IMG/VR virus record: IMGVR_UViG_3300027917_002335
Coordinates: 35,502-99,501 of that record
Reading direction: 5' to 3' (one strand)
Length of the DNA: 64,000 nt
From: a virus
Under the pieces are notes generated by a model. The model saw only the letters and a list, made by a program, of their open reading frames with translations. It searched no databases and was not told the origin of the DNA. This document shows positions 1,290 through 62,699 of the stretch, one piece after another. Made by a program: the position numbers and the translations under genes. Within the stretch, counting starts at the first letter, position 1, and every line of letters starts with the position of its first letter.

Positions 1290-1491
1290 CCGAAAAACCA
1301 CCCATAAATCTTTTTATTTCATCAAACAATACATCAAATGGATTTTCGCCTGGAGGAACTTCAACAACCCTAACTTTAAATTTAGGTCTTTCAGGCTCTA
1401 CCGCTATGCATGGCATACCATCAACCCATACGATTTTTGTTTTATCTAATTTATTTAATTCTTCCTCAGTTAATTCTTTTTCTTTTTCCAT
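1261..1491 (-). CDS. Small acidic protein between terminase and portal
   Basis: 76 residues, rich in Glu and Lys, with a proline-rich middle (VEPERPKFKVRVVEVPPGENP) split by short strands. It starts at the base where the large terminase stops and overlaps the portal start, so it is translated as part of the packaging operon. No family recognised. Candidates are a head-completion or terminase accessory factor, from position only. Confidence 0.7.
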   Translation of the reverse strand: MEKEKELTEEELNKLDKTKIVWVDGMPCIAVEPERPKFKVRVVEVPPGENPFDVLFDEIKRFMGGFSDADKERKGE

Positions 1492-3167
1492 TATCTTACA
1501 CCATATATATCAAAACTTAAGCCTCTTGGCTTAACTTGATGAACAATAATAGGTTTTTGTCTGTGACCCCATAAACTAAGAGCAAATGCAATAACTCTAT
1601 CATCGTGAAATGATTGAGTTCCGTATTTAATATAATCAGTTCCTGGCATCACTTCTGCTTCAAATCTTAAGCATTCCTCCCTAAATTCTCCAATTTCTGG
1701 TTCACTAGCTGGAGGTATTTCAATTAATCCTTTTGAAAACATCTTAATTACTTCTCCTATTAGATCAGGTTTATTTGCACGGGAAATTATAAATCCTCGT
1801 GAATTCATTTTATTGTCAAAAATTTTAGTATTAATATCTTTATCAGTTCTAAGTATATACTTCTTCCCATCCTCTTTAAATACCAATATTTTTTCTCTTT
1901 GTAAAGTTTTTATGTCATCTTCGAATAATTCTACAAGAGGATCTCCCAATCCTGTGGCGTCCAGGACTGCTAAATATGGATTAAATTTTTCAACGACCAT
2001 CATTAATTTTCTTCGAATATATTTATAAGTTCTTCTTAAGTCATTGTCACCTGCAACTGATAAAGCATAATCAAGAATAACATGACCAGTCTTTTTATCT
2101 CTATGTGTTACATAAAAACAAGAAGCATCATGTTTTCTACCATAATCTACACCTAATACATAAGCCTCTTTTTCATAAGAAACAAATGCATTTCTTAATT
2201 TTTGATTTGTACAATTTGTAAGCCACTGTCCTAAGATAACCATTGAGGCATCTGAGACAATTTCTCCTAAATATTCTTGTCTTCCCCATGGAGTCCAACC
2301 GTCATCATCTAATAAATCTTTTACATCAGCAGGATCTCTTAAACCATCATTCCAAGGATCAACCCAAGGAACTGAGAATCTTCCTATTCCGTATTTGTAA
2401 TCTAAAGCACCACAATCAACACAAGGATACATTTCGTCTAGTGGCATTCTTCCATTTGGAAAATTATCAACATTAAATGCAGATTGATGGTATTCTGAAC
2501 CACAATTGTTACAAATTATTGGTCTTGTTTCTAAACCTCTATAATAATAATCAATGAATTTTCCTTTTGGACCGTATGGAGTTGATAACATTATCCAACG
2601 CTCTCCGTGAGTGGTTGTTGGCAATGCTGCTGCGAATAAGATCTCTTCTTCTATTTGGGCTGCTTCGTCGGCAAACAGAAATGTATATGTCGACCCCCGA
2701 ATGTTGTCGGTGCATGGCCATACTTCTATATAATTCCCGTTGGCGATCTCTAAGAAATCTACTCTTAATGATTTCTGAACGACATATTTCCAAAATATTG
2801 AAAACCTCAAAATTGCTTTAATTTTACGATATAATTTCTTTGCTGCTTTATCTGATGCTGATATAATTCCAATTGTACAATTTGGAAACATTAATAAGAA
2901 AGCACAAGCAGCATAAGCACAAGCACTGGTTTTTCCAGTTTGTCTTGGCCAAATCATTACAGATCCTTTAGGGATTCTTTTTGCATCACTAAATTTATAT
3001 TGTGATAGAGGAAATCCAAATTGAATTGAATCAATTGCATCTTTTTGAGCCTGAGTTAATCTACATTTATGACCAGAATGATAAATATCTGGTAAGAATT
3101 CTTCTATAAAATCAACGGCTCTAAATGCAACATCTTGAAGATGTTGGATTTCTTCTGCACTAATCAC
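1491..3167 (-). CDS. terL: Terminase large subunit (ATPase-nuclease)
   Basis: Packages viral DNA into the prohead by ATP hydrolysis and cuts it at the end of packaging. The 558 residues carry the whole motif set: Walker A PRQTGKT (74-80), Walker B TFLFADEAA (162-170), coupling motif STPYG (195-199), first nuclease aspartate in LGVDYGRKHD (about 341), a second in VLDATGLGD (about 402), and the C-terminal SFHDDRVIAFALSLW. Between the ATPase and nuclease parts lies a zinc-ribbon-like insert with cysteine pairs at about 219/222 and 249/252. The length is normal for the family. The upstream 117-aa gene overlaps its start by 8 bases. Confidence 0.95.
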   Translation of the reverse strand: MISAEEIQHLQDVAFRAVDFIEEFLPDIYHSGHKCRLTQAQKDAIDSIQFGFPLSQYKFSDAKRIPKGSVMIWPRQTGKTSACAYAACAFLLMFPNCTIGIISASDKAAKKLYRKIKAILRFSIFWKYVVQKSLRVDFLEIANGNYIEVWPCTDNIRGSTYTFLFADEAAQIEEEILFAAALPTTTHGERWIMLSTPYGPKGKFIDYYYRGLETRPIICNNCGSEYHQSAFNVDNFPNGRMPLDEMYPCVDCGALDYKYGIGRFSVPWVDPWNDGLRDPADVKDLLDDDGWTPWGRQEYLGEIVSDASMVILGQWLTNCTNQKLRNAFVSYEKEAYVLGVDYGRKHDASCFYVTHRDKKTGHVILDYALSVAGDNDLRRTYKYIRRKLMMVVEKFNPYLAVLDATGLGDPLVELFEDDIKTLQREKILVFKEDGKKYILRTDKDINTKIFDNKMNSRGFIISRANKPDLIGEVIKMFSKGLIEIPPASEPEIGEFREECLRFEAEVMPGTDYIKYGTQSFHDDRVIAFALSLWGHRQKPIIVHQVKPRGLSFDIYGVR

Positions 3168-10347: not shown

Positions 10348-10370
10348 CTCTAATAGTATATTGATTTAAG

Positions 10371-10382
10371 GGTTTATAAAGG
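10371..10382 (-). promoter_or_regulatory. TATA box for the virion operon
   Basis: On the minus strand the sequence CCTTTATAAACC is centred 29 bases before the ATG at 10347. Archaeal TATA boxes sit about 26 bases before the transcript start, so the mRNA probably begins at or within a few bases of the start codon. No ribosome site is visible before that ATG, which agrees with leaderless translation. Confidence 0.65.
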
Positions 10383-10463
10383 TTGAGTTTATGAAAACAT
10401 AAATTAGTTCGTAATTCCATTGATTTTGATCCTCGTTTTCGCGTATTTGGGGATGTTTAGTTC

Positions 10464-10535
10464 AGGAAAAAGTAAAGAAGTGCCTAAAAGGTGACGAGTT
10501 GGGAAAAAAAGCTCGTTAATTTAGGAAAAAGTAAA
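10464..10535. repeat. Direct repeat AGGAAAAAGTAAA
   Basis: Two exact 13-base copies at 10464-10476 and 10523-10535, 59 bases apart, lie between the virion operon promoter and the palindromic element at 10549. They may be binding sites for a regulator. The stretch around them (10383-10548) shows no credible gene. Confidence 0.5.
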
Positions 10536-10548
10536 TAAATTTATAAAA

Positions 10549-10584
10549 ACATTTACCCCCCTATTATATAAGGGGAGTTAATGT
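10549..10584 (+). promoter_or_regulatory. Palindromic TATA element, copy 1
   Basis: A 36-base imperfect inverted repeat: outer arms ACATT/AATGT, inner arms CCCC/GGGG, and an AT-rich core containing TATATA. A second copy of the same length at 24115-24150 matches at about 25 of 36 positions, and both are followed by AATTTRAAAT and then AACTATRAATG at a similar distance. It is probably a promoter whose TATA box is covered by a dimeric regulator site. Confidence 0.6.
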
Positions 10585-10619
10585 AATTTGAAATGAATAA
10601 ATGAAAAGGTAAACTATAA

Positions 10620-10676
10620 ATGCCAAAAAATTTCCCGGGAAAGAAAAAAATATTTTTCCCCGGGGTGGGGATTTAA
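10620..10676 (+). CDS. Possible 18-codon leader peptide
   Basis: An ATG in the same position relative to the palindromic element as the gene start at 24182 opens only 18 codons (MPKNFPGKKKIFFPGVGI). The reading frame contains the CCCGGG palindromes, so it may be a short leader, a decayed gene, or chance. Weak call. Confidence 0.2.
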   Translation: MPKNFPGKKKIFFPGVGI

Positions 10677-10715
10677 ACAGACTCGCCGCCGATCGCGTGA
10701 AAAAAGAATTCTTTT
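10631..10715. repeat. Cluster of perfect short palindromes
   Basis: Three perfect palindromes in 85 bases: TTTCCCGGGAAA (10631-10642), CCCCGGGG (10658-10665) and AAAAGAATTCTTTT (10702-10715). They fit operator sites or a structured leader. No gene is seen from 10677 to 10817. Confidence 0.45.
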
Positions 10716-10817
10716 CTTCCAAAATTCAAAACCGGTAAATTTCTTACGAGATTTCAAGAAAAAAAAGAAGGAAAAAAAAGAGATTTAAATTCCGGATAAT
10801 TTCCTAAGAGATATTCC

Positions 10818-11336: not shown

Positions 11337-11342
11337 TTTTAT

Positions 11343-11423
11343 CTATTCCTCCAATTTTTGATTTCGGACAATCCTATTAATGGATTCTATTTTTCCGAGA
11401 TTTTTATTAAATTTATCGTTCAT
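11343..11423 (-). CDS. Possible 26-aa leaderless peptide
   Basis: An ATG at 11423 lies about 29 bases from a TTTAAAT box and opens 26 codons ending at the GGAGGAATAG that also serves as ribosome site for the 172-aa gene. The layout fits a leaderless first cistron followed by a ribosome-site-dependent second one. It may also be untranslated leader. Confidence 0.35.
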   Translation of the reverse strand: MNDKFNKNLGKIESINRIVRNQKLEE

Positions 11424-11447
11424 TAATACCTAGTAAGATAAGCTAGT

Positions 11448-11457
11448 ATTTAAATCT
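11448..11457 (-). promoter_or_regulatory. TATA box upstream of 172-aa gene
   Basis: The sequence GATTTAAATA on the minus strand is about 29 bases before the ATG at 11423, the spacing seen for the virion operon. The core ATTTAAAT is its own complement, so it could also drive plus-strand transcription into 11475-11930. It is embedded in CTAGTA...TACTAG inverted arms. Confidence 0.5.
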
Positions 11458-11933
11458 TACTACTAGTAGAATGAGCCCCTGGAGCTCCTACTATCATTCT
11501 GTAGGAAATTGATTCTATTAAGAGATGGAGCTATCGTCCTGGTGCTAGTAGGGAGTCCCTAGTCTTAATCCGTGAAATGATCAAAATTGATCGTTGGATG
11601 ATCGATTTCGGCGGCCCCGTGATCAAAAGGATGGGATTCCAGACTCCTTCGTACTCCAAAATTTTCTTAGTAAAAAAAGCCGGCTTCTGACTCCAGGTCC
11701 AGGGAAGGTATTTTTTTTGGGATCTGACTCCGAATAGGGTGGTATAGAGAATGGGTTAAAAGCCAAGAACGGACCCTGTTTCTTCCAACATTTTCGTAGA
11801 ACCATTTTTGGCTTATGTCAGATTTCCCTATATTTTATAAGGCTCCGCACTCCGAACTATATAGTCAATAAACCGTCGTCTCTTATTTGTCTTACTCGCA
11901 TCCCGTGAATTCTCTTGTCCTAAAAAGGAAAAG
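11458..11933. other. Non-coding gap, less AT-rich than surroundings
   Basis: About 475 bases without a credible gene on either strand; a 60-codon minus frame at 11623-11805 is low-complexity and unsupported. The stretch is visibly less AT-rich than the flanks. It has inverted arms AGAATGA/TCATTCT near 11469-11503 and several copies of GACTCC/CACTCC (11640-11860). It could hold a structured RNA or control region; no known RNA family was recognised. Confidence 0.4.
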
Positions 11934-11943
11934 TTTAAATAGG
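11934..11943 (+). promoter_or_regulatory. TATA box for the 12000-16732 operon
   Basis: TTTAAATAGG preceded by the purine-rich AAAAAGGAAAAG (BRE-like) lies about 62 bases before the ATG at 12000. The transcript would start near 11964 and carry a leader of roughly 35 bases. Confidence 0.5.
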
Positions 11944-11999
11944 ATGCTACATTATAACCCCTAAAGCTATTCTATGAAGAGATCAGAGCTCTTGGTAGA

Positions 12000-12182
12000 A
12001 TGCCAACCAAAAATGAGAGATTGGAAATGAAAATTGTCGATAAAATTGCGGAATTGGAACAGGAAAAGAGAATAGCTCTATATCTTGTCTTTCGCTATCC
12101 GGCTTATTCGGATTATAGTTGGCAACAATTCGTTTCCATTTCTCGCCTTATAAAATTATGGAAACTAATGGAGGGAAAATAA
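12000..12182 (+). CDS. Hypothetical 60-aa protein
   Basis: First gene of the plus-strand operon; charged N-terminal helix, then an aromatic stretch (YSDYSWQQFVSISRLIKLWKL). Ends at the start codon of the next gene (TAATG). Unrecognised. Confidence 0.5.
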   Translation: MPTKNERLEMKIVDKIAELEQEKRIALYLVFRYPAYSDYSWQQFVSISRLIKLWKLMEGK

Positions 12183-21049: not shown

Positions 21050-21121
21050 GGGCTCGTAGTAAAGCGGAATTACATCTCCTTTGCACGGAGAAGAGCGAGG
21101 GTTCAAATCCTTCCGAGTCCA
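21050..21121 (+). tRNA. tRNA-Ala (UGC)
   Basis: Full cloverleaf by eye: acceptor GGGCUCG/CGAGUCC (one G-U), D-stem GUAA/UUAC, anticodon stem UCUCC/GGAGA with loop UUUGCAC (anticodon UGC), T-stem GAGGG/CCUUC with loop UUCAAAU, discriminator A. CCA is not encoded. No intron. Confidence 0.92.
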
Positions 21122-21128
21122 TAAAAAA

Positions 21129-21199
21129 GGGAGAGTAGTTTAAAGGTAGAACAGACAGCGTGAGAGCTGTTAACGAGGGCTCAATTCCCTCCTCTCCCA
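21129..21199 (+). tRNA. tRNA-like gene with odd anticodon loop
   Basis: Perfect 7-bp acceptor GGGAGAG/CUCUCCC, D-stem GUUU/GAAC, T-stem GAGGG/CCCUC with loop CUCAAUU, discriminator A. The anticodon stem is best paired as ACAGC/GCUGU, which leaves only a six-base loop GUGAGA; a seven-base loop with U at 33 breaks the stem. GAG, GUG and UGA are possible readings but none fits well (short variable region argues against Leu or Ser). It may be a non-decoding or degenerate tRNA. Confidence 0.7.
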
Positions 21200-22121: not shown

Positions 22122-22393
22122 CTCATTTAAAAAAAGTTAGTAGAGAAGATCCAATGTTCTCAGGCAGAGCAATCTATTTTCAACCAATTTTGAAAGATGG
22201 TTCACCTGGTATTCCAGAAAAAATAGCAGATGTACCAGATAATGACATTATTTGTGACGGTTGTAATAATCTAATAGAAGATGACGAAGTTTACCTTCTT
22301 ATTCTCCAAGAAGGAGATGAAGAGCCTAGAATTTGGGGAACTCAATGTAAAGAATGTGTTGAAGAATACTATTCTGAGCTTGAAGTAAAATGA
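22118..22393 (+). CDS. Zinc-binding protein (91 aa)
   Basis: CDGC (47, 50) and CKEC (78, 81) pairs around a strand-rich region, like small FYDLN/HNH-less zinc domains. ATGA overlaps on both sides. Function unknown. Confidence 0.65.
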   Translation: MTHLKKVSREDPMFSGRAIYFQPILKDGSPGIPEKIADVPDNDIICDGCNNLIEDDEVYLLILQEGDEEPRIWGTQCKECVEEYYSELEVK

Positions 22394-22662
22394 TATTACA
22401 AAATTTTGGAAAGGTAACGCTCGAAGAGGCGGGTAATGGTAGATACATTGTTGCGGAAATTGACACAGAAGTTAAATACATTAAAGATAGGCTTAAAATG
22501 ATAGGTATTTATGAAGGAGCCTATATTGAGAAAGAATGGACACAAGAAGGAACTGGTGTGTTTATTATAATTAACAGAGAAACTAAACTAATAGGAATGG
22601 GCGTAGCAAAACAAATTATGGTAAAAGATTATAATAATCCTTTTGCTAGGGATATAGAATGA
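22390..22662 (+). CDS. FeoA-like SH3-fold protein
   Basis: 90 residues. KDRLKMIGIYEGAYIEKEW followed by TGVFIIINRETKLIGMGVAKQIMV matches the FeoA pattern (RLxxxGxxxGxxV...ixx..A..I.V). FeoA domains bind FeoB or occur at the ends of metal-dependent regulators; a stand-alone viral copy may be a small regulator. Not next to any feoB. Confidence 0.6.
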   Translation: MILQNFGKVTLEEAGNGRYIVAEIDTEVKYIKDRLKMIGIYEGAYIEKEWTQEGTGVFIIINRETKLIGMGVAKQIMVKDYNNPFARDIE

Positions 22663-22772
22663 CACACACATATTTTGGAAGAGACCATCTGGGGCATAAT
22701 GGAGTCGAAGGATGGTATGGCTTACCTAGTGTCTTTGGAGATATACTCCATTCGTCCAAAAAGAAAAGGTGA
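22659..22772 (+). CDS. Possible 37-aa protein
   Basis: ATGA overlap with the FeoA-like gene. His-, Gly-rich N-terminus and basic end SSKKKR. It ends directly before the structured RNA; it could be real or part of the RNA leader. Confidence 0.4.
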   Translation: MTHTYFGRDHLGHNGVEGWYGLPSVFGDILHSSKKKR

Positions 22773-22774
22773 CA

Positions 22775-23226
22775 GAAATTTTCTTTCGGTTTTTTAAGGT
22801 TTCAGAGCTGATGGTAGTACCGAAGTTTTTTGCCGAACAAAAAACGATAAAACAGAGACAGGAGTAAACTTTCGTCAGTTTTAAATACTCTAACAAGAAA
22901 GCTGTCTCAAATTGCGTATTGAAGCAACGCGTTATAAGAACAGAAGGTTAAGTTTATATCCTCAGCTTCCAAAAAAACTCAACTACTCATTGTCCCGTTC
23001 GTAAGTCGTAGAGAGAGAAATGTGAATGAGTGAGTAAATCGTTAGATGAAAGCGGAATTCCATTTGGCCGGACGCAATACGGTGGAGAGGTGAGTAGTTC
23101 AAACAATAAGTCGTACCCTGAGGGCGTAGGCTTAGTCTACATTGATGGGTTCTATAACAAATGAGATGACAGGTCCAATCTCAGCGAGTTATTGGATATG
23201 ATGGGTTAATATATAGAGGTGTATAA
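22775..23226 (+). ncRNA. Large structured RNA candidate (about 450 bases)
   Basis: No gene-like reading frame, and less AT-rich than neighbours. Many perfect helices: GTTTTTTG/CAAAAAAC hairpin (22825-22845); GAGACAG (22855-22861) with CTGTCTC (22902-22908) enclosing GAGT/ACTC and AACT/AGTT; AACTACTCA (22981-22989) with TGAGTAGTT (23091-23099); CCCTGAGGG (23116-23124); GTAGG/TCTAC (23126-23140); TGAGAT (23162-23167) with ATCTCA (23178-23183) inside ATAAC/GTTAT. ACAGAAGG near 22939 and TAGATGAAA near 23043 faintly recall RNase P motifs but in the wrong order. It lies 1.6 kb after two tRNA-type genes. No known class recognised. Confidence 0.65.
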
Positions 23227-23228
23227 GA

Positions 23229-23798
23229 ATGGATTTAGACAAAGAGTTTGAATTGTATCGGAAGTTGGAAGTAATGGCTTTTCGTTACTTTCGTATGGCA
23301 GAATTCTTAGAAATCTGCCTAAAAACGAACTTGAAATTAAAAGATGAACTCGGCACTATCCTTGATCCTAAAGGATACCGAAAACTGTCGTTCTTAGAAG
23401 GCAATAAATACTTTAAAGGATCGATACATATCCCTCACAATCCTTTTTACAATAATACCGAAGATCAACAACTTTGGAGAACGATCTATCCCGAAGACTT
23501 TACTTGGGTTACAAACACTAAGAAAGATATTGTTAAAGCATATCAAGAAGTGTGGCGCAGAATCAATGAAATTAAATTCTGGTTAGGAATTACTAAAGAC
23601 ACGCAATTTTGCGGGATTAGATTAGAGAGCAGATTAACCACATTATTGGAGAATCTACTCCGCACTAATATCCCTGAATTTAGATATGATTTTGAATTCA
23701 CAATTTTCTATGAAATTGACAGATACACAATTCAGAGATTCCTTAGAGTTATGAAAAATAGAAGCAGAAAAGGAAGGGTGATTCAACTAATAAAATGA
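23229..23798 (+). CDS. Hypothetical 189-aa protein
   Basis: AGAGGTG lies 7 bases before the ATG. Helical, rich in Arg, Lys, Phe and Tyr, pI clearly basic at the C-terminus (RVMKNRSRKGRVIQLIK). It directly follows the structured RNA and may bind it; this is inference from position and charge. It overlaps the next gene as ATGA. Confidence 0.65.
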   Translation: MDLDKEFELYRKLEVMAFRYFRMAEFLEICLKTNLKLKDELGTILDPKGYRKLSFLEGNKYFKGSIHIPHNPFYNNTEDQQLWRTIYPEDFTWVTNTKKDIVKAYQEVWRRINEIKFWLGITKDTQFCGIRLESRLTTLLENLLRTNIPEFRYDFEFTIFYEIDRYTIQRFLRVMKNRSRKGRVIQLIK

Positions 23799-27268: not shown

Positions 27269-27587
27269 AAAACAAGTTAATAAATATTTTGAGGATTTAA
27301 AAATGAGTAAAGCAAAAGAAGAGAAGAATTTTTTGGCTGATTTTACGCCAAACGGGATGGAACCATCTAATGGAGTTAGACATCATCATTATAAACTTTC
27401 AGATGTTGTATGTAAACTTCTTACTAAGATGGAAGAAATTGAGAATACAATTGAAGTAGTGAAACATTTTTTGGGAGAAGAACTCTACTGCGCTATGAGT
27501 AAAAAAGTTAAGAGGATAAAACAACAAGAGAAGAAAATATTGGAAGAACAGCAGAAACTTGTTGAATTAAAGGGAGGATTATGTTAA
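27255..27587 (+). CDS. Coiled-coil protein (110 aa)
   Basis: ATG at 27255 chosen over an in-frame ATG at 27213 inside the previous gene. The C-terminal half (about 60-108) is a heptad-rich coiled coil (KRIKQQEKKILEEQQKLVELK). GGAGG near its end is the ribosome site for RNase HI. Unrecognised. Confidence 0.6.
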   Translation: MRKIKKQVNKYFEDLKMSKAKEEKNFLADFTPNGMEPSNGVRHHHYKLSDVVCKLLTKMEEIENTIEVVKHFLGEELYCAMSKKVKRIKQQEKKILEEQQKLVELKGGLC

Positions 27588-28033
27588 GACTATTTATTGA
27601 CGGGAGTGCAACACCAAATCCAGGACTAGGTGGAATTGGATTTGTGTTGTATGATGACGACAAACAAATTATGCACGGATATACATATCTTGGTGAAAAC
27701 ATAACAAATAATATGGCTGAATTCTTAGCTGTTCCTCACTCTCTTTTTCATATCATTAACGCATTTAAACCAAAGGAGTTAGAAATTAATACTGACAGTG
27801 AACTTGTTTATTCAGCATTTATGGGAACGAAACAAGTGAGAAATGTTAAACTTGTTGATATATTTGAAGCAGGTCTACAAACAACTTCTCTTATTTCAGA
27901 AATTCATTGGAATAAAATAAGTAGATTGCTTAATGGATATGCCGACAATTTAGCAAGAAGAGCTATTAATAAGAAAGATTCCGAGGTTTATATAAATGCG
28001 AGCAGAATTCCAAAAACTGGTAAAGAGGATTAA
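27581..28033 (+). CDS. rnhA: Ribonuclease HI
   Basis: Cleaves RNA in RNA-DNA hybrids, probably removing primers. 150 residues with the four catalytic acids in order: D7 (FIDGSATPNPG), E47 (NNMAEFLA), D72 (INTDSELV) and D122 (GYADNLARRA). Length is normal. It overlaps both neighbours and sits in the small-gene operon rather than with the polymerase. Confidence 0.92.
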   Translation: MLRLFIDGSATPNPGLGGIGFVLYDDDKQIMHGYTYLGENITNNMAEFLAVPHSLFHIINAFKPKELEINTDSELVYSAFMGTKQVRNVKLVDIFEAGLQTTSLISEIHWNKISRLLNGYADNLARRAINKKDSEVYINASRIPKTGKED

Positions 28034-28226
28034 GGAAGTATGGGAAATCTTGTTTATATTTGTTACTTTTGTTATTACTATGATTATTATGATTGTGTTT
28101 GTTGCTCATAGTAGTAATGATCTTGAACAAAATATAGCAATGATGATAGGAAGTGTATTTTATTTTACTATGATGGCGGTGGTATTAGTTGTATTGCCCA
28201 GAATGCGGAAAAGAAAGCGCAAGTGA
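27996..28226 (+). CDS. Two-span membrane protein (76 aa)
   Basis: Basic N-terminus, hydrophobic segments at about 17-37 and 48-66, then a very basic end PRMRKRKRK. Overlaps RNase HI and TFB genes by about 38 bases each. Unrecognised. Confidence 0.55.
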   Translation: MRAEFQKLVKRIKEVWEILFIFVTFVITMIIMIVFVAHSSNDLEQNIAMMIGSVFYFTMMAVVLVVLPRMRKRKRK

Positions 28227-29235
28227 ATATGTTTGTACTAATTGTGGATTAGTATTTGAAGATAAACCTATAACAAATCAACCACCTATTTCACCTGAGA
28301 GCGAGGTAATCAGAGGTGGGAAGTTTAGATCCAAGTATCTTAAGGATCTACTCTCTCCCACCAAAATTAATTTAAAACATGTAAATGACGATATGAAGAG
28401 AATCCTAAAAAAGAATACTCCGTTTTGGGATTTGAAAAGAACATTAATCATTCACAATGAAATCAAACGATTATGTTGTTTATTAAATTTAAATAAAAAT
28501 GTAGAAATAAGTTGTGTTTATTATCTTAATAAGATTAAGTCTAAGAGTAAAGAACTTGGATTTTCTCTATTCAAAAAAGGAGGAAGTTCACTCGAAAAAA
28601 TTGCTCACGCTATTGTTTTCTTAGTAGCCAGAGTAGAAGATTTACCACTTACTCTATATGATTTTGAAAGAATTGGATTAGATAAAAAGGAAGTATACAA
28701 ACAATATTCAAGGTTAAAGAGAGATTTAAAGATAAGATTTAAACCAACCGACGCAAGTGTTTATATTAATAAAATTTTAAAACAATTAGATTTACAAATA
28801 AGAGATGAATCATTGTTGTCTTTATGCGCCACTTCATTTATAATGAAAGTTGGTGTCTTAGAAGAATTAACAACTCATCCTCTTGGATTTAGAAATCAAA
28901 TTGTTAAAACAGCAGCAGTTATATATATGCTTGGAGGAAGTGTTTATCGTATTACTCAAAAAGAAATTTGTAATATAGTGGGATGTAATACACATGCACT
29001 ACGAAATAGAATTGAAGAAATAAAAGATTTGCTTTATAAGGTTGGTAAAATTCGTTTTGAAGATAAACACTGGAGAAAATTTAATAAAGAATATAAGCCG
29101 TTTATTGATAATATGTCGAAAATACTTGAAAGACCAAAATACTTTATAAGTGGTTTAGTAGATTTAAAATATCAAATGGAAATAACCAAAGCATTCAAAG
29201 GAATTATAGAATTGGAGTTTAAAGATGCTAGTTAG
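28189..29235 (+). CDS. tfb: TFB-like transcription initiation factor
   Basis: 348 residues from a TTG start. N-terminal zinc ribbon C3/C6/C16/C19 (CPECG...CTNCG), a linker in the place of the B-reader, then helical repeats consistent with the paired cyclin folds: about 75-180 and 195-300, the latter with a helix-turn-helix-like ITQKEICNIVGCNTHALRNRIEEI. TFB recruits RNA polymerase to TBP-bound promoters. A viral copy could redirect host polymerase to viral promoters. The cyclin repeats are divergent, but ribbon plus layout make the call firm. Confidence 0.8.
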   Translation: MYCPECGKESASEYVCTNCGLVFEDKPITNQPPISPESEVIRGGKFRSKYLKDLLSPTKINLKHVNDDMKRILKKNTPFWDLKRTLIIHNEIKRLCCLLNLNKNVEISCVYYLNKIKSKSKELGFSLFKKGGSSLEKIAHAIVFLVARVEDLPLTLYDFERIGLDKKEVYKQYSRLKRDLKIRFKPTDASVYINKILKQLDLQIRDESLLSLCATSFIMKVGVLEELTTHPLGFRNQIVKTAAVIYMLGGSVYRITQKEICNIVGCNTHALRNRIEEIKDLLYKVGKIRFEDKHWRKFNKEYKPFIDNMSKILERPKYFISGLVDLKYQMEITKAFKGIIELEFKDAS

Positions 29236-36479: not shown

Positions 36480-37113
36480 ATTTGTAACTCCTCACGCCAT
36501 TAAATACAAGGCTCGTGAAAAGCTAATAATGGAGAGAACCAAAGCTGGTCATAGAGGACCTATTGGAGCTATTCGTCTAACTGCTGATAGAACTGTTGAG
36601 GCTTTTCTTGATTACTTTGATATGTTAGGCTCAGATGGTTGGATTTATTCTGGAATTTGTGAAGATCCAGATCTTCCCTATGGTGGGGTTCATGTATTCT
36701 ATAAATGGGTTGAAGACGATGGTTTTAAATCAACCATTGAAGAACCAGAAATTATAGATGAACAACCTCTTTCTGCTTCTGAAGTTTATGAAAGAGAAAG
36801 AGAGAGACAAGAACTTTTAAAACAAACAACCGATCCTAGACAAATATCGGATGCAAGATTAAATGCTGAGATGATGGCACGACAAGAACCAATTAAGGAT
36901 TTAGATGAAGATAGCGATATCTTAGAAGAATTAGATTATGCAGTTCATCACGAAGAAGTTATGGAAGACGAAGATCCAAAGAAAATTAGGTTTGAATTAT
37001 ACAAACAGTATGAAGAAATCAATCCTAATAAGAAAGCTGTTTTTAGAGGCAAAGAAACACAAGGATTTACAGAATGGTTGGAATCACAACAGGAAAAATG
37101 GGCTAAAAAATAA
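36460..37113 (+). CDS. Hypothetical 217-aa protein
   Basis: Basic N-terminal 45 residues, an alpha/beta middle (VEAFLDYFDMLGSDGWIYSGIC..GGVHVFYKWV), then a very acidic helical region and a basic end. Stop and next start overlap (TAATG) with the clamp-loader gene. Could be a replisome accessory protein by position. Confidence 0.65.
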   Translation: MKRIVNRFVTPHAIKYKAREKLIMERTKAGHRGPIGAIRLTADRTVEAFLDYFDMLGSDGWIYSGICEDPDLPYGGVHVFYKWVEDDGFKSTIEEPEIIDEQPLSASEVYERERERQELLKQTTDPRQISDARLNAEMMARQEPIKDLDEDSDILEELDYAVHHEEVMEDEDPKKIRFELYKQYEEINPNKKAVFRGKETQGFTEWLESQQEKWAKK

Positions 37114-38090
37114 TGAACCTTGATGTGAAATACCGTCCGAGAACCTTTAAGGAATTTAAAGGCAACGAACGGATTATTAGGGATATAAAAGCCTTACTCA
37201 AAGTTGGAGATTTACCACACCTTATGTTTGTTGGACCTCCAGGAACTGGTAAAACAACACTAGCACTTCTTATTGCTCGAACAGTATTAGGAAGACCTAT
37301 TCATATTAATACTCGTGATGGCGATCCAGATTTTAAAGAGTTAAATGCTTCTAGTGCAAGAGGAATAGATGTTGTAAGAGAAGTAATAGAAGAATACGCT
37401 AGGGTTAAACCATTAGAAGGTACTCCTTATAGATTTATTTTATTAGATGAAATAGATTCTTCTACTCAGGAATTTCAACACGCCCTACGACCTGTTATTG
37501 AAAAGAATGAAGATAGATGTAAGTTTATTCTATGTTTAAACAGGATTCAAGGAATAAAAGAACCAGCTTTAATTTCTAGGTGTGCAACATTCTTTTTTGA
37601 AAAGCCTAATACTGATGTAACAGCTAGCTTGTTACTTGAAATAGCTGAGAAGGAAGGAGTTAAATTTGAGGATGAACAATTAGCTTATGATGTAGCAGAA
37701 TATTATGAAGGAGACTTGCGCCATATTCTCAACGATTGTTTAGAAACATTAAGAGGATATGATGAGGTAATAACTAAAGATCATTTATGGAAAGTCTATG
37801 AGAAAAATGGAAAATCAGTTGCTTCAAGAGTATATGAATCTGAAAATCCAAAGGAAGAATTCTTTACAATATATAGGAAAGAAGCCTTTGATGTTAGAGA
37901 GTTTTTGGAAGAATATTTCAAGCTCTTAGGAGATAAAGGGATTCCGCACTCGAAAGAGATTTCCAAGATAGACGCAAGAATTAGAAATTATTGTAATGTA
38001 CCAATACAAATGAGTTATTTTTTCTCGTTATTTGAAAACGAAGGTGAAAAAGAGGATGGAATTAAGACTAAGTTTAAAAAACCCTTCTGA
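37113..38090 (+). CDS. rfcS: Clamp-loader small subunit (RFC-S-like)
   Basis: 325 residues with the RFC boxes in order: KYRPRTFKEFKGNE (6-19), Walker A VGPPGTGKTT (40-49), LNASSARGIDVVRE (77-90), Walker B ILLDEIDSS (109-117) and the arginine-finger SRC motif ALISRC (about 151-156). It loads the sliding clamp onto primed DNA. C-terminal collar region is present, length normal. Adjacent large-subunit-like ATPase and clamp genes complete the set. Confidence 0.93.
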   Translation: MNLDVKYRPRTFKEFKGNERIIRDIKALLKVGDLPHLMFVGPPGTGKTTLALLIARTVLGRPIHINTRDGDPDFKELNASSARGIDVVREVIEEYARVKPLEGTPYRFILLDEIDSSTQEFQHALRPVIEKNEDRCKFILCLNRIQGIKEPALISRCATFFFEKPNTDVTASLLLEIAEKEGVKFEDEQLAYDVAEYYEGDLRHILNDCLETLRGYDEVITKDHLWKVYEKNGKSVASRVYESENPKEEFFTIYRKEAFDVREFLEEYFKLLGDKGIPHSKEISKIDARIRNYCNVPIQMSYFFSLFENEGEKEDGIKTKFKKPF

Positions 38091-43285: not shown

Positions 43286-43443
43286 CTGATAGAGATATAA
43301 TTGTAATAAGAACTAAGGATTATGCTTTTGAACATTTAGAAGAATTCTCTCGTTTTGTAGAGCATGTTCAGATGTTCGATGACGACAAAACTAAATTTAT
43401 CGTTATACCAAACCAGATTGTAGAGGAAGTAGAAAGATTATGA
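43282..43443 (+). CDS. Hypothetical 53-aa protein
   Basis: Acidic alpha/beta peptide (IIVIRTKDYAFEHLEEF...KFIVIPNQIVEEV), coupled by ATGA to both neighbours. Confidence 0.5.
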   Translation: MTDRDIIVIRTKDYAFEHLEEFSRFVEHVQMFDDDKTKFIVIPNQIVEEVERL

Positions 43444-44717
43444 ACCTTAAGATAATGAATTATGGGTATTATAACAACAAGAGCGATGTTGAAAAATATA
43501 ATGCCCCAATTTTACTTTTATTTTGCAGAGATGAGAAGGGAAACTTTCATGTAGTTTATATTTGTGATAAGGAAAATTTAGCACCAGAAATGTATATACC
43601 AAAAAATGAAATACATATAGCCAAAGAGCTAGATAATATTATAACAATAACTGATGGACCACCATCAAATTATGGAGAGGAAACTCTTAGATTAACAACA
43701 ACATTTCCATGGGAAGTAAGAAGAAACAGGGATTTGTTTAGTCACACATTCTTGTCAGATATTAAATGGGAAAAAATGTGTATAGAGAAGATGGGAATTC
43801 GCACTCCTTACATCACAGTTTCGGACGATTTTAAAGATAGATGGTTGACTGTCAAAGACATCAAAGAATTAAATGAATACGATCATTTCTATGTCAAGAT
43901 TAGAACAGTTATATGGGATATAGAAACAAATGGAGAGCCAGTTTATCCTTTGTTTAATGGATATGATGATGCAGAAATATGCGATATAATAAGCATTACA
44001 GCATACGATAATTATACAGAGGAATATCATAGATTTATTTGGCATCCTCTTATTAAAGAAGACAGTCTTGAATTTGTTAAGAACTGGGAAAGAAGAGGAG
44101 AATATTATGTACCAGCTCTCAAAAAAAAGAAGAAATATTTCAATGTAAATAAAGTTTTTAATCATAATTTCACCAATGAAGTTGATATGTTGAAAAATTT
44201 TATAGACTGGATTGCTATGATAAGACCAGATGTTATGTTTGGTTTTAATAGTGAAGGAGGATATAAAATCTCAACTAAGAAAGGATATTCAAGAAAATAT
44301 TATCACGCTGGATTTGATATGCCTTATTTCTATAAAAGATGTAAGGCTCTCAAGATATTAGATTATATGGAAAAACTTAGCCCTCTTCCTAATACAATTA
44401 AAGGAGTTAAATGGAGAAGTCAAGGCAAGAAAGGAGGAGTGAGTATAGAAGGATTGTGTCAGATAGATTTCATATATACGAATGCCATCTTTATGTATGA
44501 TAAGAAATTTAATGAATTTAGAGAGGGCAACTTAGATGGATATATGAAATATTTTGTGGGATTTGGAAAGGTTCATCATAAAGAACATGTATGGGAACTT
44601 TGGAAGAATAACGAAACTTCTGATTATGATCCAACAAATCCAGAACAATATTTAATTAATAAAGAAAGAAATTTGGTGAAGGAATTATATACGAAAGCGA
44701 AGAAAATATTCGAGTGA
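43440..44717 (+). CDS. polB: DNA polymerase B, N-terminal part (exonuclease Exo I-II)
   Basis: 425 residues. Exo I is VIWDIETNGEP (157-167, D160/E162); Exo II is split over GFNSEGG (about 278) and HAGFDMPYFYKR (about 291-302) with the Asn and Asp in place. The protein ends soon after, before Exo III. Exo III and all polymerase motifs are on the protein at 45318, three small genes downstream. The two parts must assemble for a working proofreading polymerase. Start and stop overlaps with neighbours show that this is a settled gene, not sequencing breakage. Confidence 0.88.
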   Translation: MNLKIMNYGYYNNKSDVEKYNAPILLLFCRDEKGNFHVVYICDKENLAPEMYIPKNEIHIAKELDNIITITDGPPSNYGEETLRLTTTFPWEVRRNRDLFSHTFLSDIKWEKMCIEKMGIRTPYITVSDDFKDRWLTVKDIKELNEYDHFYVKIRTVIWDIETNGEPVYPLFNGYDDAEICDIISITAYDNYTEEYHRFIWHPLIKEDSLEFVKNWERRGEYYVPALKKKKKYFNVNKVFNHNFTNEVDMLKNFIDWIAMIRPDVMFGFNSEGGYKISTKKGYSRKYYHAGFDMPYFYKRCKALKILDYMEKLSPLPNTIKGVKWRSQGKKGGVSIEGLCQIDFIYTNAIFMYDKKFNEFREGNLDGYMKYFVGFGKVHHKEHVWELWKNNETSDYDPTNPEQYLINKERNLVKELYTKAKKIFE

Positions 44718-45068: not shown

Positions 45069-45346
45069 TGATACTGTCAGATATATTAAAAGAAGGAGAA
45101 AAATCATACGAGATACCTCCTGCTTATAGAACTATTGAGATACGACATCGTAAACTTGCGTTGACTATTGTAAAATATGATGTAATAATAACATTTGAAC
45201 AATACAGTAGTTTAATGAAAGACATGAAAGATGGTAGAGCCGTTTGGGTTGATGGAAAAGAAGCAATGATAGTTTATACAAGAGGAGTAAGTATGATTGA
45301 AGATATGATAAAAATAGATGAGATTAGATATGACTGTTTGCGATAA
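45068..45346 (+). CDS. Hypothetical 92-aa protein
   Basis: Alpha/beta, rich in Ile, Asp and Lys (ALTIVKYDVIITFEQYSSLMKDMKDG). Its last 29 bases overlap the start of the polymerase C-part. Unrecognised; third gene in the polymerase gap. Confidence 0.6.
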   Translation: MILSDILKEGEKSYEIPPAYRTIEIRHRKLALTIVKYDVIITFEQYSSLMKDMKDGRAVWVDGKEAMIVYTRGVSMIEDMIKIDEIRYDCLR

Positions 45347-46994
45347 GTTGCTCGACTATAATCTTGTAGATGTGGAAGGTCTTGTCTTATTAGACGATTT
45401 CTTTAAGATGATAGAAGACCAATTTGAACAAGCACATCTTGTGGTTGCTCCTCCAGACGATGGAATATATTCCAGCAAAATGCACGACCATGATATGATT
45501 AGAGATTATAGAGAGACAATGGTTTTTGATACAAAGTATCAGAAATGGGAGAGAAAACCAATAACAGGTAAGAAGCAGATTGGTTCTAAATTTACAATTA
45601 CATTGGAAGATTTAGTAGAAGTTAGGAAGAGGAGAGGAGATACTGAAGAAATTAAAAGTTTACATGATTTGCCAAAAATCGGGGGGTATGTGCCTGAACC
45701 ATTAAGAGCCGGGATGTTCGTATGGGTTATTACAATAGATTTTAACAAACAATATCCCAATGCGATAATGAGTTCAAACGCCGGAATAAAAACAGCAATT
45801 AATTTGTTAAAATATAACGATGAAGAAGTTTGGGATAAGGATGGAACGGTTTACCAACGAACGAATCTAATCGAAACGCCCATGGGCTTTTTCAGGAAAG
45901 ATATTGAATCAGTTAATAGAAAGAAATTTATGAAGTGGCTTGAGTTACGATTAAAAGCTCAAGAGATGGCTACAGCGTACTTAAAAGCTAAAAAAACTAT
46001 TGAAGATCCAATGTATAAGTTGTTAGATGGCAAACAATTTCGAATCAAAACTTTCACGAATGGAGGATTCGGAATCATGGGTTTACCAGCTGACAGGAAT
46101 TACTCAAAATTTATATTCAATAATTGTACTCTCATGTGTCAAGATTTGACTAAGAAGATGATGAATGTTTTAAAAGAACTTGACTATGTTGTTATTGGAG
46201 GAGATACAGATTCTTGTTTTGTTTGTTTAAAATGTAAAAATTTAGAAGAAGCAATAGAAGAGGGAAAAGAATTAGTAAATAAGATTAATAAGATAATAGA
46301 TAATTATCTTCGTAGAGTTTATAATATACAAGAACACACAATGAAAGTTGGATTAGAAACTATATCAGATAAATTCTGGGTTAAAGCAGCTAAAAATTAT
46401 GTTAAAAGAAATCTATGGAAGGATGGTCAAATTTTAGACAAGGCTGAATTAGAAATAAAAGGTATCTCTCAAAAGAAGAGAAACACATCTAAATTCTCTG
46501 CTGACTTACAATCTACTATGATAGATATATTGTTAGATTCTCCTAATGTAGAGGAAGATTTTAAATTATTGATGAAAGTTCTTGATTCAAGATTCGAAAC
46601 ATTACCTTGGACTTATATTGCACCTAAAGGAGCAATCAATAGTGAGATAGATGATTATGATTTAGGTAATAGAAATGCAAGAGGAGCTAGAAACACTCGT
46701 GATTATTTTAACAAATATTTTAATCCTGGCGACAATCCATATATAATGCCGTTCAGCCAGTTTCCTAAGAAGTTGAATGGAAAGTTTGTAACACCTTATA
46801 AAGGAGATACAATTGTGTTATCTTTTGATGAAGAAGATGTAGAAGAACTTAAAAATTTAGGATTCGTTCCAGATTATGAAGAATTAAAAAGAAGCCAGTT
46901 AAATGAGAAATCAAAACCGTTTCTCAGCTTAATGAATACTTCTTATTATCAAATGAGAGCATTAAATAAAGTGAGCAATGATATGGAATTATGA
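45318..46994 (+). CDS. polB: DNA polymerase B, C-terminal part (Exo III and polymerase), DMEL tail
   Basis: 558 residues. It opens with Exo III, DYNLVDVE (Y14/D18), then motif A VITIDFNKQYPNAI (137-150), motif B KTFTNGGFGIMG (244-255) and motif C IGGDTDSC (293-300, D296/D298). It ends VSNDMEL. Motif A has DFNKQYP in place of the common DxxSLYP. With the part at 43440 this makes a full family B polymerase, split between Exo II and Exo III. The C-terminal tail may bind a shared partner such as the clamp. Confidence 0.92.
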   Translation: MRLDMTVCDKLLDYNLVDVEGLVLLDDFFKMIEDQFEQAHLVVAPPDDGIYSSKMHDHDMIRDYRETMVFDTKYQKWERKPITGKKQIGSKFTITLEDLVEVRKRRGDTEEIKSLHDLPKIGGYVPEPLRAGMFVWVITIDFNKQYPNAIMSSNAGIKTAINLLKYNDEEVWDKDGTVYQRTNLIETPMGFFRKDIESVNRKKFMKWLELRLKAQEMATAYLKAKKTIEDPMYKLLDGKQFRIKTFTNGGFGIMGLPADRNYSKFIFNNCTLMCQDLTKKMMNVLKELDYVVIGGDTDSCFVCLKCKNLEEAIEEGKELVNKINKIIDNYLRRVYNIQEHTMKVGLETISDKFWVKAAKNYVKRNLWKDGQILDKAELEIKGISQKKRNTSKFSADLQSTMIDILLDSPNVEEDFKLLMKVLDSRFETLPWTYIAPKGAINSEIDDYDLGNRNARGARNTRDYFNKYFNPGDNPYIMPFSQFPKKLNGKFVTPYKGDTIVLSFDEEDVEELKNLGFVPDYEELKRSQLNEKSKPFLSLMNTSYYQMRALNKVSNDMEL

Positions 46995-52893: not shown

Positions 52894-54057
52894 ATGGAAA
52901 GTGAATATAGATTTAGAGCATTACCAAAACAATCGAAGAGCAGGATAAATTCAATGTTTTATTTTTGTCCTTATCTTGCTTATTGCAATGATTATTTAGG
53001 AGAAGAAAGAGGAGAGGGAACAATAAGAACTTCTGTAGGAACTGATGTGCACATGATTCTTTCTGAGTTTTGGAAACAATTTGATATAGATTATTTATAT
53101 GAAGATATAGAAATTAATCCTAATAAAGATTTAGAAAACAACCCAATAACTTATTACTTCTATGGTATTTGTATGGAGTTAACTCCAGAATACGATAGAG
53201 AAGTTCAAGTATTACAGAGAATTTATTGGAAGTTTGCTAAGTTACAAACAGCAAGATTCTTATCTTTGTATCAAATGTTTAAAGGAAATAAACTAAGAGT
53301 GTATGAATATTTTACACCAATAGAAATTGAACAACACTATTATAATGAAGATTTGGAAATTTATGGCACTCTTGATTGTGTTTATAAGATTCCAGAGCTA
53401 GGAGAAACATTAACAGAATCATTATTTATTAGTGATATAAAGACTGGTAATATACCAGCCAGCGTTAGGAGAGGCGCTACAAATGTTAGCGATGAAACAT
53501 CAGTAAAAGTTCCTCCTAAATTTATGTTTGAAATTCATTTCTATGCTCTTTTGTATTTGACTCAACATGGATGGTATTTTAAAGACGAAAGAGTACAACG
53601 ATTTGTTTTGAATAATGAATATTATGACGAGGTATCAAAAACTTATAAGAGTTTTGGACTAGGAAAAACGAAAGAAGAAGAGCAAAATTTACAGAAGAAA
53701 AAGAAAAAATATATTAGTAAGATAGATCATAAACTACATATTTATAATTACGCACTTGAAAAAGAAATAGAATTAAATTATGGAGATTTAAATGTTGGTT
53801 ATCTGTTCTTAACAGGAGATCCTAGCATTAAAGATCCTGTTGTTGTTAAAAAGAAATTTACTTACTCTTCTTTTAAAACTGCTCTATTAAAAATTAATTT
53901 AGCAAGAGCTATTTGGTTTAATAGAAACGATGATAGATTCTATCTTGTTAGACTTATGAAGACAAGACCAGAATACAATCAATATCGTTGTGATAATTGT
54001 AGTAGAAAAGAAAAATGCTTAGCAGAAATTGAAGCAGAGTTTAAAGGTGAAAAATAA
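52894..54057 (+). CDS. Cas4/AddB-like PD-(D/E)XK nuclease with Fe-S cysteines
   Basis: 387 residues. Early Cys in FCPYLAYC (C25/C31), GTDVHMILSEFW (49-60, His of motif I), YGTLDCVYK (Asp), LFISDIKTG (DxK), FEIHFYALLYL (QxxxY-like), and C-terminal YRCDNCSRKEKC (about 368-379). This is the RecB-type nuclease layout of Cas4 and AddB with a four-Cys cluster. It probably processes DNA ends in recombination or replication. Longer than Cas4 because of an insertion at about 80-140. Confidence 0.85.
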   Translation: MESEYRFRALPKQSKSRINSMFYFCPYLAYCNDYLGEERGEGTIRTSVGTDVHMILSEFWKQFDIDYLYEDIEINPNKDLENNPITYYFYGICMELTPEYDREVQVLQRIYWKFAKLQTARFLSLYQMFKGNKLRVYEYFTPIEIEQHYYNEDLEIYGTLDCVYKIPELGETLTESLFISDIKTGNIPASVRRGATNVSDETSVKVPPKFMFEIHFYALLYLTQHGWYFKDERVQRFVLNNEYYDEVSKTYKSFGLGKTKEEEQNLQKKKKKYISKIDHKLHIYNYALEKEIELNYGDLNVGYLFLTGDPSIKDPVVVKKKFTYSSFKTALLKINLARAIWFNRNDDRFYLVRLMKTRPEYNQYRCDNCSRKEKCLAEIEAEFKGEK

Positions 54058-54170
54058 TGGAATGGAAAGAAATTAAATGCTTTTATTGTGGTAAAGTTTT
54101 TTATATACCCATTACAAGCGAAATAGAAAAAGGATTATGTGAAGAATGTTACAAATATTTAGGTGTTTAA
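54057..54170 (+). CDS. Zinc-ribbon peptide (37 aa)
   Basis: CFYC (8, 11) and CEEC (28, 31). ATG overlaps the nuclease stop. Typical of the tiny zinc ribbons throughout the window. Confidence 0.55.
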   Translation: MEWKEIKCFYCGKVFYIPITSEIEKGLCEECYKYLGV

Positions 54171-56915: not shown

Positions 56916-57111
56916 AGAGAAACTAGAAAGGATAGAAGAGAGTCTATATTTATGGCTTATAGATACCAGTGCTGGAGATAGAGACGATTATGTTATTGGA
57001 GACCTATTTATATATAAAATAATCCACGAGTTCTTTCCAGATTTAGCTAAACAAGTAGAGGAAATAAAAAAGAACCCACCAATGAGAGTAAACTATCTTG
57101 GAGACAGTTAG
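56905..57111 (+). CDS. Hypothetical 68-aa protein
   Basis: Acidic helical peptide between the XPF-like and XPD-like genes and overlapping both, hence probably a partner of one of them. Unrecognised. Confidence 0.5.
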   Translation: MEAEEKLERIEESLYLWLIDTSAGDRDDYVIGDLFIYKIIHEFFPDLAKQVEEIKKNPPMRVNYLGDS

Positions 57112-58948
57112 AAACATAATTGCACAAGAATGTACAGATTTTGTGCGTTATGGTAAAGGAAATCTAGTGTATAGAACATTCACAGGTTCAGGCAAAACAA
57201 CTACAGTATTAAAGACACTGTATGAATCTAAGGATGGATTTAGCTGGATGTACTTTGCACCCTATCACAAAGTAATACAAGAGAATATGGAATTGTCAAA
57301 AGTGATAGAGTTTTCTAATGATTGGATTCATTTATTATCTCGAAAGTATTTATGCTTGGATAAAGACTTTAAAAAATTGACAAAACATGGTGTAAATATT
57401 CAACCTTTTTGTGAGAATTTTTGCACACTAAAAGATACTCGTTGTCCTTATTATGAGAATCTACGAAAGTTAAGAGACTATCCTTATTGCTTTGCTGGTG
57501 TTCATGCTCACATTCCAACATTATTACAAAAACTATTATTTGAGAAATGGAAAGGAAGAATGTTCTTTTCTTATTATGATGTCATTGTAATAGATGAGTT
57601 TCCTTATAGTTCTATTTATAGCCAATTGTCATTAGGAAGAAAAGACATAGCTAAACAAATAGATGTTTTAGATTTAATGGGGTTGGGCGGTAGATTAGAC
57701 CATGTAATAAGATATTTATTAGAAAGATTACTTCTTTCTGTTGATAGCGCAAAAGGATTAGACTATGATGATTTAGAAAGAGTCTTAACAGAAGCAAGAG
57801 GATTAAATGTAGATACATATAAGGAAGAATATGACTTACAAATGTTAGAGTTGGTTAGGAAGAAGAAAATTAAAAATCCACCTAAGGATATCTTACATTA
57901 TTTATTGGAAATTCTTAAAAGACATCCTTCGAGAGACAAATTAGAATGGATGATTCACAAGACAGTAGAAACTTCTTGGCACAATTCGAAATTATATCTT
58001 ACAATTTCTAATATACCACACTTTAAGAATTTACCTAATAAAGTTATAGCATTAGATGGCACAGCAGATTTACCTATTTGGAAAGCAATATTAGGAGAAG
58101 ATACAACAGCAATAACATTTGATTTACAATATAAAAATATGTACCAAATGATTGGTGCAAGAAATCCTACAAGTACAATAGTAAAAGCAGGAGAATTTTC
58201 TCCTTCTGGTGTGAGATTATATGAGATATTAAAAAGAATTTGTGAATATAAGAAAAGAAAATATAAAGTATCGGGTTATAAAGTAAAAGAAGTTAAAGTT
58301 TTAATTTGTTGTAGTTATAGGATACAAAAATTATTAGAAAAAGAATTTAAGAAGGATAAAGTAACAAATTTTGAGTTTGCTACTTTTTATAATTTACGCT
58401 CACGAAATTCATATTTCGAAGACTGTGACACTTGCGTTGTATTCCACGAGCCAAATATACCGCCGTTCCAAACAGAAATAATAAAGAATGTCCTGGACTT
58501 TGATTACGACACAATTAGATTAATTCATAGAGAAGACGAAATGAAACAAGGGATTGGTAGAGCAAGACAAAATATACCGGTAACTCCACAAGGAAGAAAG
58601 AGAGAGAAATTACGGGAGATATTTATATTCTCTTCTACTGGGTATAAGAAATTATTTCCAGAAGCAAGATACATGACTTACGAAGATATGCTTTCTTATG
58701 TGACAGGAGGAAAAAAGAGATTATATTTTGATACAGTCAGAGATTTTATAACAGAACATACACCAATTTCAAAGACAAAATTAGGAGAACATTTAGATTT
58801 ATCATACACAAAAGTAGATAGACTAGTTAGTATATTAGAAAAAGAAGGAGATGTAAAAGTAGAATGGGGCAAAATCACATGGATCAAGCCTCCTACTTTA
58901 GAGGATGAAGAAAGATATTTAATAAAAATAGGAGGCGTAGCATGGTAA
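57098..58948 (+). CDS. XPD-like Fe-S helicase with C-terminal winged helix
   Basis: 616 residues from TTG 57098. Walker A is TFTGSGKTTT (27-36), an Fe-S cysteine set C86, C105, C109, C116 sits between motifs I and II as in XPD/Rad3, Walker B is IVIDEFP (163-169), DGTADLP follows at about 325, and motif VI is QGIGRARQN (about 487-495). A winged-helix DNA-binding tail lies at about 550-600. It should unwind DNA 5' to 3' by family precedent. Pairing with an XPF-type nuclease recalls nucleotide-excision repair. Confidence 0.8.
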   Translation: METVRNIIAQECTDFVRYGKGNLVYRTFTGSGKTTTVLKTLYESKDGFSWMYFAPYHKVIQENMELSKVIEFSNDWIHLLSRKYLCLDKDFKKLTKHGVNIQPFCENFCTLKDTRCPYYENLRKLRDYPYCFAGVHAHIPTLLQKLLFEKWKGRMFFSYYDVIVIDEFPYSSIYSQLSLGRKDIAKQIDVLDLMGLGGRLDHVIRYLLERLLLSVDSAKGLDYDDLERVLTEARGLNVDTYKEEYDLQMLELVRKKKIKNPPKDILHYLLEILKRHPSRDKLEWMIHKTVETSWHNSKLYLTISNIPHFKNLPNKVIALDGTADLPIWKAILGEDTTAITFDLQYKNMYQMIGARNPTSTIVKAGEFSPSGVRLYEILKRICEYKKRKYKVSGYKVKEVKVLICCSYRIQKLLEKEFKKDKVTNFEFATFYNLRSRNSYFEDCDTCVVFHEPNIPPFQTEIIKNVLDFDYDTIRLIHREDEMKQGIGRARQNIPVTPQGRKREKLREIFIFSSTGYKKLFPEARYMTYEDMLSYVTGGKKRLYFDTVRDFITEHTPISKTKLGEHLDLSYTKVDRLVSILEKEGDVKVEWGKITWIKPPTLEDEERYLIKIGGVAW

Positions 58949-61695: not shown

Positions 61696-62699
61696 TGCCA
61701 AGAGAAAAAATAAGAATATCGTTAGAAGAAATAGAGGAAGCAAAGTCTAAGTTTCATACCTACACCGAACAAGCAAAATATTTAGGTGTAAGTGATGATG
61801 TTTATAGACGAGAAAGAGAACGAGCAGAAAAGCTAAAGCAATTCCAAAATAAGGTTCAATACTTAACAGAGAGAGATCCTAAGTTAGAACTAACAAAAGA
61901 GAAAAGCATAGCAATTCTTAAGAAAGAATGTGAAGAAATCTATTCCAGATCGAGAAAAACTATTGGTTATAATGAAGTCACATTTGACTTAGGAGACGAT
62001 GACGCAGGAGTTAAATTAGATTGCGACTGGCATATAGGAAATGAAATGACAAATCTACCATTGTGGGCACAAGATATAGAAACAACAATAAAAATACCAA
62101 GATTATTTACTGTCTTAGATGGGGATTACACAGATAATTTAGATGCAATAAGCAAAGGATATGAATCTATAATAACTGTGCCAGAAGCTAAGGATAAAGT
62201 TAAGGACGCAGTTATGATGATGGGCAGAAAGATTCTTGGCACAGTTCAAGGATGCCACGATGAATGGTTCTTTAAACAAGATTCATGGGATATCTCACAA
62301 TATTTAGCAGATCATTCCGATGGATACTGGCTTGGCTTTAGAGGAATATTAAATCTAATTATCGGTGAACAAAAGTATCGAATCTATGTAAGGCACAAAT
62401 ATAGAAGACACTCTACTGACAATGAAACATGGGGTATGTTGTATAAATTTAGAAAATTAAAAGAACCTGTTGATATTATGATGGGTGCACATCACCACCA
62501 TCCAGTAATTTCATCTGTATTCGAAAGAGGTCAGCTGGTTTATCTTTGTCAAGGTGGTTCTTATAAGCCTTATGACAGATTTATAGAACATAGGGACATA
62601 GTGGAAGGAACACCCTTAATGCCTGCTTTCCTGTTGAGAGCCGATAGACACGAGATTATCCCATTTATTGATTTCAATGAGATAGAAGATTATTTATAA
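61695..62699 (+). CDS. Calcineurin-like metallophosphoesterase
   Basis: 334 residues. The metal sites are DCDWHIGN (109-116), VLDGDYTDN (140-148), GCHDEW (186-191, place of GNHD/E), VRHKYRRHS (about 233-241) and GAHHHHP (about 262-268). N-terminal 90 residues include a helix-turn-helix-like part. Such enzymes are phosphatases or nucleases (Mre11/SbcD type); target not readable. Adjacent to glycosyltransferases. Confidence 0.85.
   Translation: MPREKIRISLEEIEEAKSKFHTYTEQAKYLGVSDDVYRRERERAEKLKQFQNKVQYLTERDPKLELTKEKSIAILKKECEEIYSRSRKTIGYNEVTFDLGDDDAGVKLDCDWHIGNEMTNLPLWAQDIETTIKIPRLFTVLDGDYTDNLDAISKGYESIITVPEAKDKVKDAVMMMGRKILGTVQGCHDEWFFKQDSWDISQYLADHSDGYWLGFRGILNLIIGEQKYRIYVRHKYRRHSTDNETWGMLYKFRKLKEPVDIMMGAHHHHPVISSVFERGQLVYLCQGGSYKPYDRFIEHRDIVEGTPLMPAFLLRADRHEIIPFIDFNEIEDYL

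Follow-up and report, generated by a model that had tools for sequence, protein, structure and literature searches.

Between two small genes of an archaeal virus lies a run of roughly 450 bases in which no convincing gene can be recognised, and the question it raises is whether these bases encode a structured RNA. The window, that is, the whole stretch of DNA that we analysed (64,000 nucleotides), is taken from a 99.5-kb virus record, of which it covers 35502-99501. Judged by gene content, the virus is archaeal and tailed. The genes concerned are the following:

1491-3167, minus strand: large terminase
27581-28033: RNase H
28189-29235: TFIIB-like factor
37113-38090: RFC-like AAA ATPase
43440-44717 and 45318-46994: family B DNA polymerase, split over two genes

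Because a relative of the terminase is carried by a contig (L032) of a Heimdallarchaeota MAG, Asgard (Heimdall-type) archaea are the likely hosts, although this assignment is indirect and depends on the binning of that contig. Using the terminase and the polymerase, we picked up six related viral contigs from IMG/VR:

G001: IMGVR 3300005264_000006, approximately 85% protein identity to the virus of the window
G002: IMGVR 3300027814_000057
G003: IMGVR 3300027888_000010
G004: IMGVR 3300002053_000022
G005: IMGVR 3300027901_000002
G006: IMGVR 3300027917_000038

G001 to G004 are fragments that lack the part of the genome holding the stretch. In G001 (L019, L020), DNA polymerase B and the homologues of 57098-58948 and 61695-62699 each have an in-frame, intein-like insertion, and near 12.7-14.0 kb there is a TnpB/OrfB-like gene; the virus of the window has none of these.

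A G+C-rich stretch without coding signal

The non-coding stretch is 456 nt long, or at most about 565 nt if a doubtful 37-aa ORF at its 5' side is included, and is flanked by ORF 22390-22662, which has a borderline match to the FeoA domain (PF04023, E 9e-5), and ORF 23229-23798. Its features are:

22663-22772, plus strand: likewise G+C-rich and likely to extend the candidate at its 5' end; overlaps the doubtful 37-aa ORF 22659-22772
22773-23228, plus strand: non-coding, G+C-rich stretch, candidate RNA; no frame with coding signal, G+C in the top few per cent
22879-22887, plus strand: archaeal TATA-box-like word TTTTAAATA, inside the stretch
23229-23798, plus strand: downstream gene for a basic protein of 189 aa; conserved in two related viruses, with no such stretch before it

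The original prediction described the stretch as non-coding and less AT-rich, and both descriptions hold. No frame in 22773-23228 scores clearly over shuffled sequence: the coding score of the best ORF (44 aa, 23030-23164) was equalled by 49 of 500 shuffles, and scores from a hexamer model, for which this group of viruses was the training set, put the stretch in the lowest few per cent. ORF 22659-22772 begins, like its upstream neighbours, with an ATGA overlap, has a weak coding score (4.0) over its 37 codons, and yielded no relatives. The G+C content of 22773-23228 is 38.7%, compared to 32.4% across the window (top 2.7% of windows), and rises to 45.6% in 22980-23150 (top 0.2%). The G+C-rich part starts upstream of the span first proposed, with 22663-23226 in the top 0.8%. 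At 39-46% the stretch resembles the tRNA genes of the window, while most other gaps without coding sequence are short or A+T-rich. The TATA-box-like word might mark a promoter.

Folding energy and local helices

The expectation of many perfect nested helices beyond chance was not borne out. The minimum free energy had a z-score against shuffles of -0.10 for the originally proposed span (-0.12 was also obtained) and -0.75 for 22663-23226, and none of the sliding windows inside the stretch had a notable folding energy. This lack of an energy excess over shuffled controls is the first outcome that the original prediction had named as speaking against it. The opposite strand, compared to its own shuffles, scored slightly better than the plus strand (z -1.66).

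We counted as local helices those that are perfect, have at least 6 bp and at least two G-C pairs, and span no more than 110 bases. The proposed span contains 9 such helices against 5.2 in shuffles, a level reached by 73 of 1,000 shuffles. For 22663-23226 the count is 13 against 6.6, reached by 16 of 1,000 shuffles and also by 36 of 450 ordinary windows of the same genome. A chain of side-by-side closing helices as good as that of the stretch occurred in 20 of 500 shuffles and in 22 of 338 genome windows, and two closed modules of crossing helices were reached by 3 of 1,000 shuffles and 3 of 338 genome windows, with a filter that was set up post hoc, when the helices had already been seen. The helix excess is modest and the helix statistics are only mildly positive.

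As a yardstick for the energy test, two Asgard RNase P RNAs had z-scores of -1.1 and -1.9, and the tRNAs of the window -2.6 and -3.9. Because RNase P RNAs score so weakly, the test has little power for large RNAs and its null result for the stretch is not decisive; the candidate does score weaker than the yardstick RNAs. The stretch may therefore still be a structured RNA, which folding energy and helix statistics neither establish nor exclude.

The helices quoted in the original prediction do exist: GAGACAG (22855) with CTGTCTC (22902-22908), AACTACTCA (22981) with TGAGTAGTT (23091-23099), and TGAGAT (23162) with ATCTCA (23178-23183). The first was said to enclose two further nested stems; both stems are present, but GAGTA/TACTC and CTTTC/GAAAG are not nested: they cross each other and would be a pseudoknot or alternative stems. 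The helices can be grouped into four putative domains, all on the plus strand:

22673-22761: putative domain 1, TTTTGGA/TCCAAAA around ACCATC/GATGGT, crossed by AATGGAGT/ACTCCATT; local fold z -1.3
22855-22908: putative domain 2, GAGACAG/CTGTCTC around GAGTA/TACTC, crossed by CTTTC/GAAAG; local fold z -2.6, with boundaries picked once the helix had been seen
22981-23099: putative domain 3, 9-bp closing helix AACTACTCA/TGAGTAGTT; local fold z -1.6
23104-23194: putative domain 4, closing helix CAATAA/TTATTG with hairpin TGAGAT/ATCTCA within; local fold z -1.2

Known RNA classes and homologues

The stretch belongs to no recognised class, as had been proposed: Rfam gave no match to it, either at the gathering score or with the threshold relaxed to E 10. 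This includes the models for ROOL and GOLLD and those for group I and group II introns. The archaeal RNase P RNA model (RF00373) had no match in the candidate; of three Asgard genomes, two had genes that this model recognised. The candidate is like RNase P RNA in its length and in the weak folding-energy z-scores found in Asgard genomes, and unlike it in lacking a model match.

Nucleotide relatives were found neither among 50,697 phages and 72,556 plasmids nor in the six related viral contigs, and BLAST against 227 Asgard-phylum genomes gave only one marginal 27-base match in an unrelated context, in searches that are blind to an RNA conserved in structure alone. Two exact 20-mers of the stretch occur nowhere else in IMG/VR. 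Six-frame fragments had no protein relative in the related viruses, and searches through the adjacent gene, with the single sequence and with a three-sequence alignment, found no further relatives.

The original prediction drew a parallel with large phage RNAs on the grounds that the stretch follows two tRNA-type genes:

21050-21121: tRNA-type gene, upstream of the stretch
21129-21199: tRNA-type gene, upstream of the stretch

These genes do lie upstream, but 1.6 kb away and with five ORFs between. ROOL is a phage-borne, multi-domain RNA with pseudoknots, often near tRNA islands and without a known protein partner, and GOLLD is a large phage RNA of unknown function, also often near tRNAs, of which many members are longer than 800 nt, with a conserved 3' region in common (PMC12286853). 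The candidate differs from ROOL in having no model match even at E 10 and no homologues, in belonging to an archaeal rather than a bacterial virus, and in the 1.6 kb and five ORFs that separate it from the tRNA-type genes. It differs from GOLLD in its lack of a match and in its length, which does not exceed about 565 nt. The parallel is therefore weak.

The second tRNA gene (21129-21199) has a 6-nt anticodon loop (GUGAGA), and ARAGORN assigns it no name. Its anticodon would be GAG if read with U33 and A37; the gene is without the long variable arm of tRNA-Leu, and its D arm looks glycine-like. In G006, the non-coding region 53681-54070 (L043:13681-14070), near tRNA-Ile, ends with a T arm and acceptor like those of a tRNA (GGAGGTTCGATTCCTCCACTGCC) and is possibly an intron-containing or degenerate tRNA gene.

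Possible filler between two small genes

The strong rival to an RNA is that the stretch is neutral filler with no RNA function: DNA of foreign origin, what is left of a decayed gene, or the scar of a recombination event. With a null energy test and no conservation to point to, we consider this nearly as likely as an RNA. There is no folding excess, relatives lack the stretch at this position, and the genes next to it are gained and lost among them as well, and the short ORF 23030-23164, with some coding-like score, could be a remnant. Decay, however, would not give a G+C content far over that of the coding and most spacer sequence of this virus. There is otherwise no coding signal in any frame, and no fragment has protein or DNA relatives. 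Moreover, viruses seldom retain 450 idle bases.

The downstream gene

The product of 23229-23798 is basic (pI 9.4), as the original prediction said of the next gene. It has no Pfam or PHROGs match and is predicted, with low confidence, to be all-helical; its structure model (pLDDT 53) is too poor for a fold search. The family is present in three related viruses, and their alignment shows the motifs CGI..ESRL...LEN and EFRYDFE.

The stretch ends with a ribosome-binding site, GAGGTG, directly before the ATG at 23229, and the genes here are all on the plus strand, as would suit a long cis-acting leader controlling translation or stability of the 189-aa gene. We consider such a leader unlikely: the homologues in G005 (48% identity) and G006 (51%) have no comparable leader and no RNA-sized gap in front, the preceding ORF ending about 60 bases or less upstream. 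Since both viruses keep the gene without the stretch, the stretch is, on this comparison of sequences, lineage-specific and not a required partner of the gene; gene gain and loss are frequent in the small-gene array around it. A type III toxin-antitoxin RNA was also considered and dropped, since tandem repeats are lacking and relatives have the downstream gene but not the stretch.

Non-coding regions elsewhere

It is improbable to a greater degree that the stretch acts as DNA, as a secondary replication origin, a protein-binding array or a packaging site. Direct repeats of 9 nt (two pairs) and several short inverted ones do occur in it, but the repeats are few, and origins are usually A+T-rich. 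A better candidate is the divergent non-coding region at 10.3-12.1 kb, which has counterparts in relatives. This large region between divergent genes (11337-12118 and 10348-10817) contains palindromes, reaches 47% G+C locally, and is a candidate origin or control region; on the corresponding terminase side, large gaps occur at about 68.0-68.6 kb in G005, 58.9-59.4 kb in G004 and about 43.1-44.6 kb in G006.

Least probable of all is an intron or insert splitting a small gene that begins at 22659, with its 3' exon near 23030-23164: the 22659 ORF has an ATGA overlap like its upstream neighbours and then stops after 37 codons, and a close relative has inteins and a TnpB-like gene, but intron models remain unmatched at E up to 10 and neither putative exon has relatives.

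One related virus has a gap that invites comparison:

G005:40213-40529 (L038:213-529), minus strand: G+C-rich non-coding gap, about 320 nt, 46% G+C, between small genes

The gap is like the candidate in belonging to the same kind of virus, in being G+C-rich and flanked by small genes, and in having no Rfam match; it is placed in the same variable half of the genome. It is unlike the candidate in its exact genome position and in showing no similarity above shuffles; alignments of the stretch to other gaps were likewise not above shuffles. It contains crossing helices (GCTCTG/CAGAGC and CGGCCTC/GAGGCCG) and has no folding-energy excess, and most of the G005 and G006 sequence had no Rfam match at the gathering score. 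An HDV-like ribozyme, which has a similar helix order, was dropped for this gap: the P3 loop is far too long and Rfam gave no match.

A candidate orphan RNA

The stretch is non-coding, G+C-rich, without a recognised class, and not conserved at the same place in relatives. Our preferred reading, which we hold tentatively and at somewhat less than even chances, is that it encodes an untranslated, lineage-specific RNA on the plus strand with a trans-acting accessory role, an orphan candidate whose transcription, fold and trans action we infer. In favor of an RNA are some 450 bases without coding signal, the high G+C, the mild excess of local helices, the two crossing modules, and the G+C-rich gap of G005. 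Against it are the null folding energy, the slightly better opposite strand, the lack of any homologue, the retention of the downstream gene without the stretch in G005 and G006, and a G005 gap that cannot be aligned above chance.

The candidate RNA would be transcribed from the plus strand, either together with the operon or under a promoter of its own. The accessory genes around it are small and change quickly, and the tailed virus that carries them probably has an Asgard (Heimdall-type) archaeon as its host. Folded locally, the RNA would have about four domains in a row, of which two may be pseudoknotted, and it might act in trans, for example by interfering with a host factor or defence.

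In bacteria, large and elaborately folded phage RNAs have been described, with their function open. To our knowledge, almost nothing has been established experimentally about viruses of Asgard archaea. It is a long shot, though one worth stating, that this is the first large pseudoknotted untranslated RNA of an Asgard tailed virus, trans-acting in infection and belonging to a class with no relation to ROOL, GOLLD or OLE, and that related viruses have diverged or analogous RNAs of their own, G005:40213-40529 being an example. The present case is a single-sequence orphan, a candidate RNA only, and is worth flagging: if true, it would mean that such RNAs arise outside bacteria too, in viruses of Asgard archaea.
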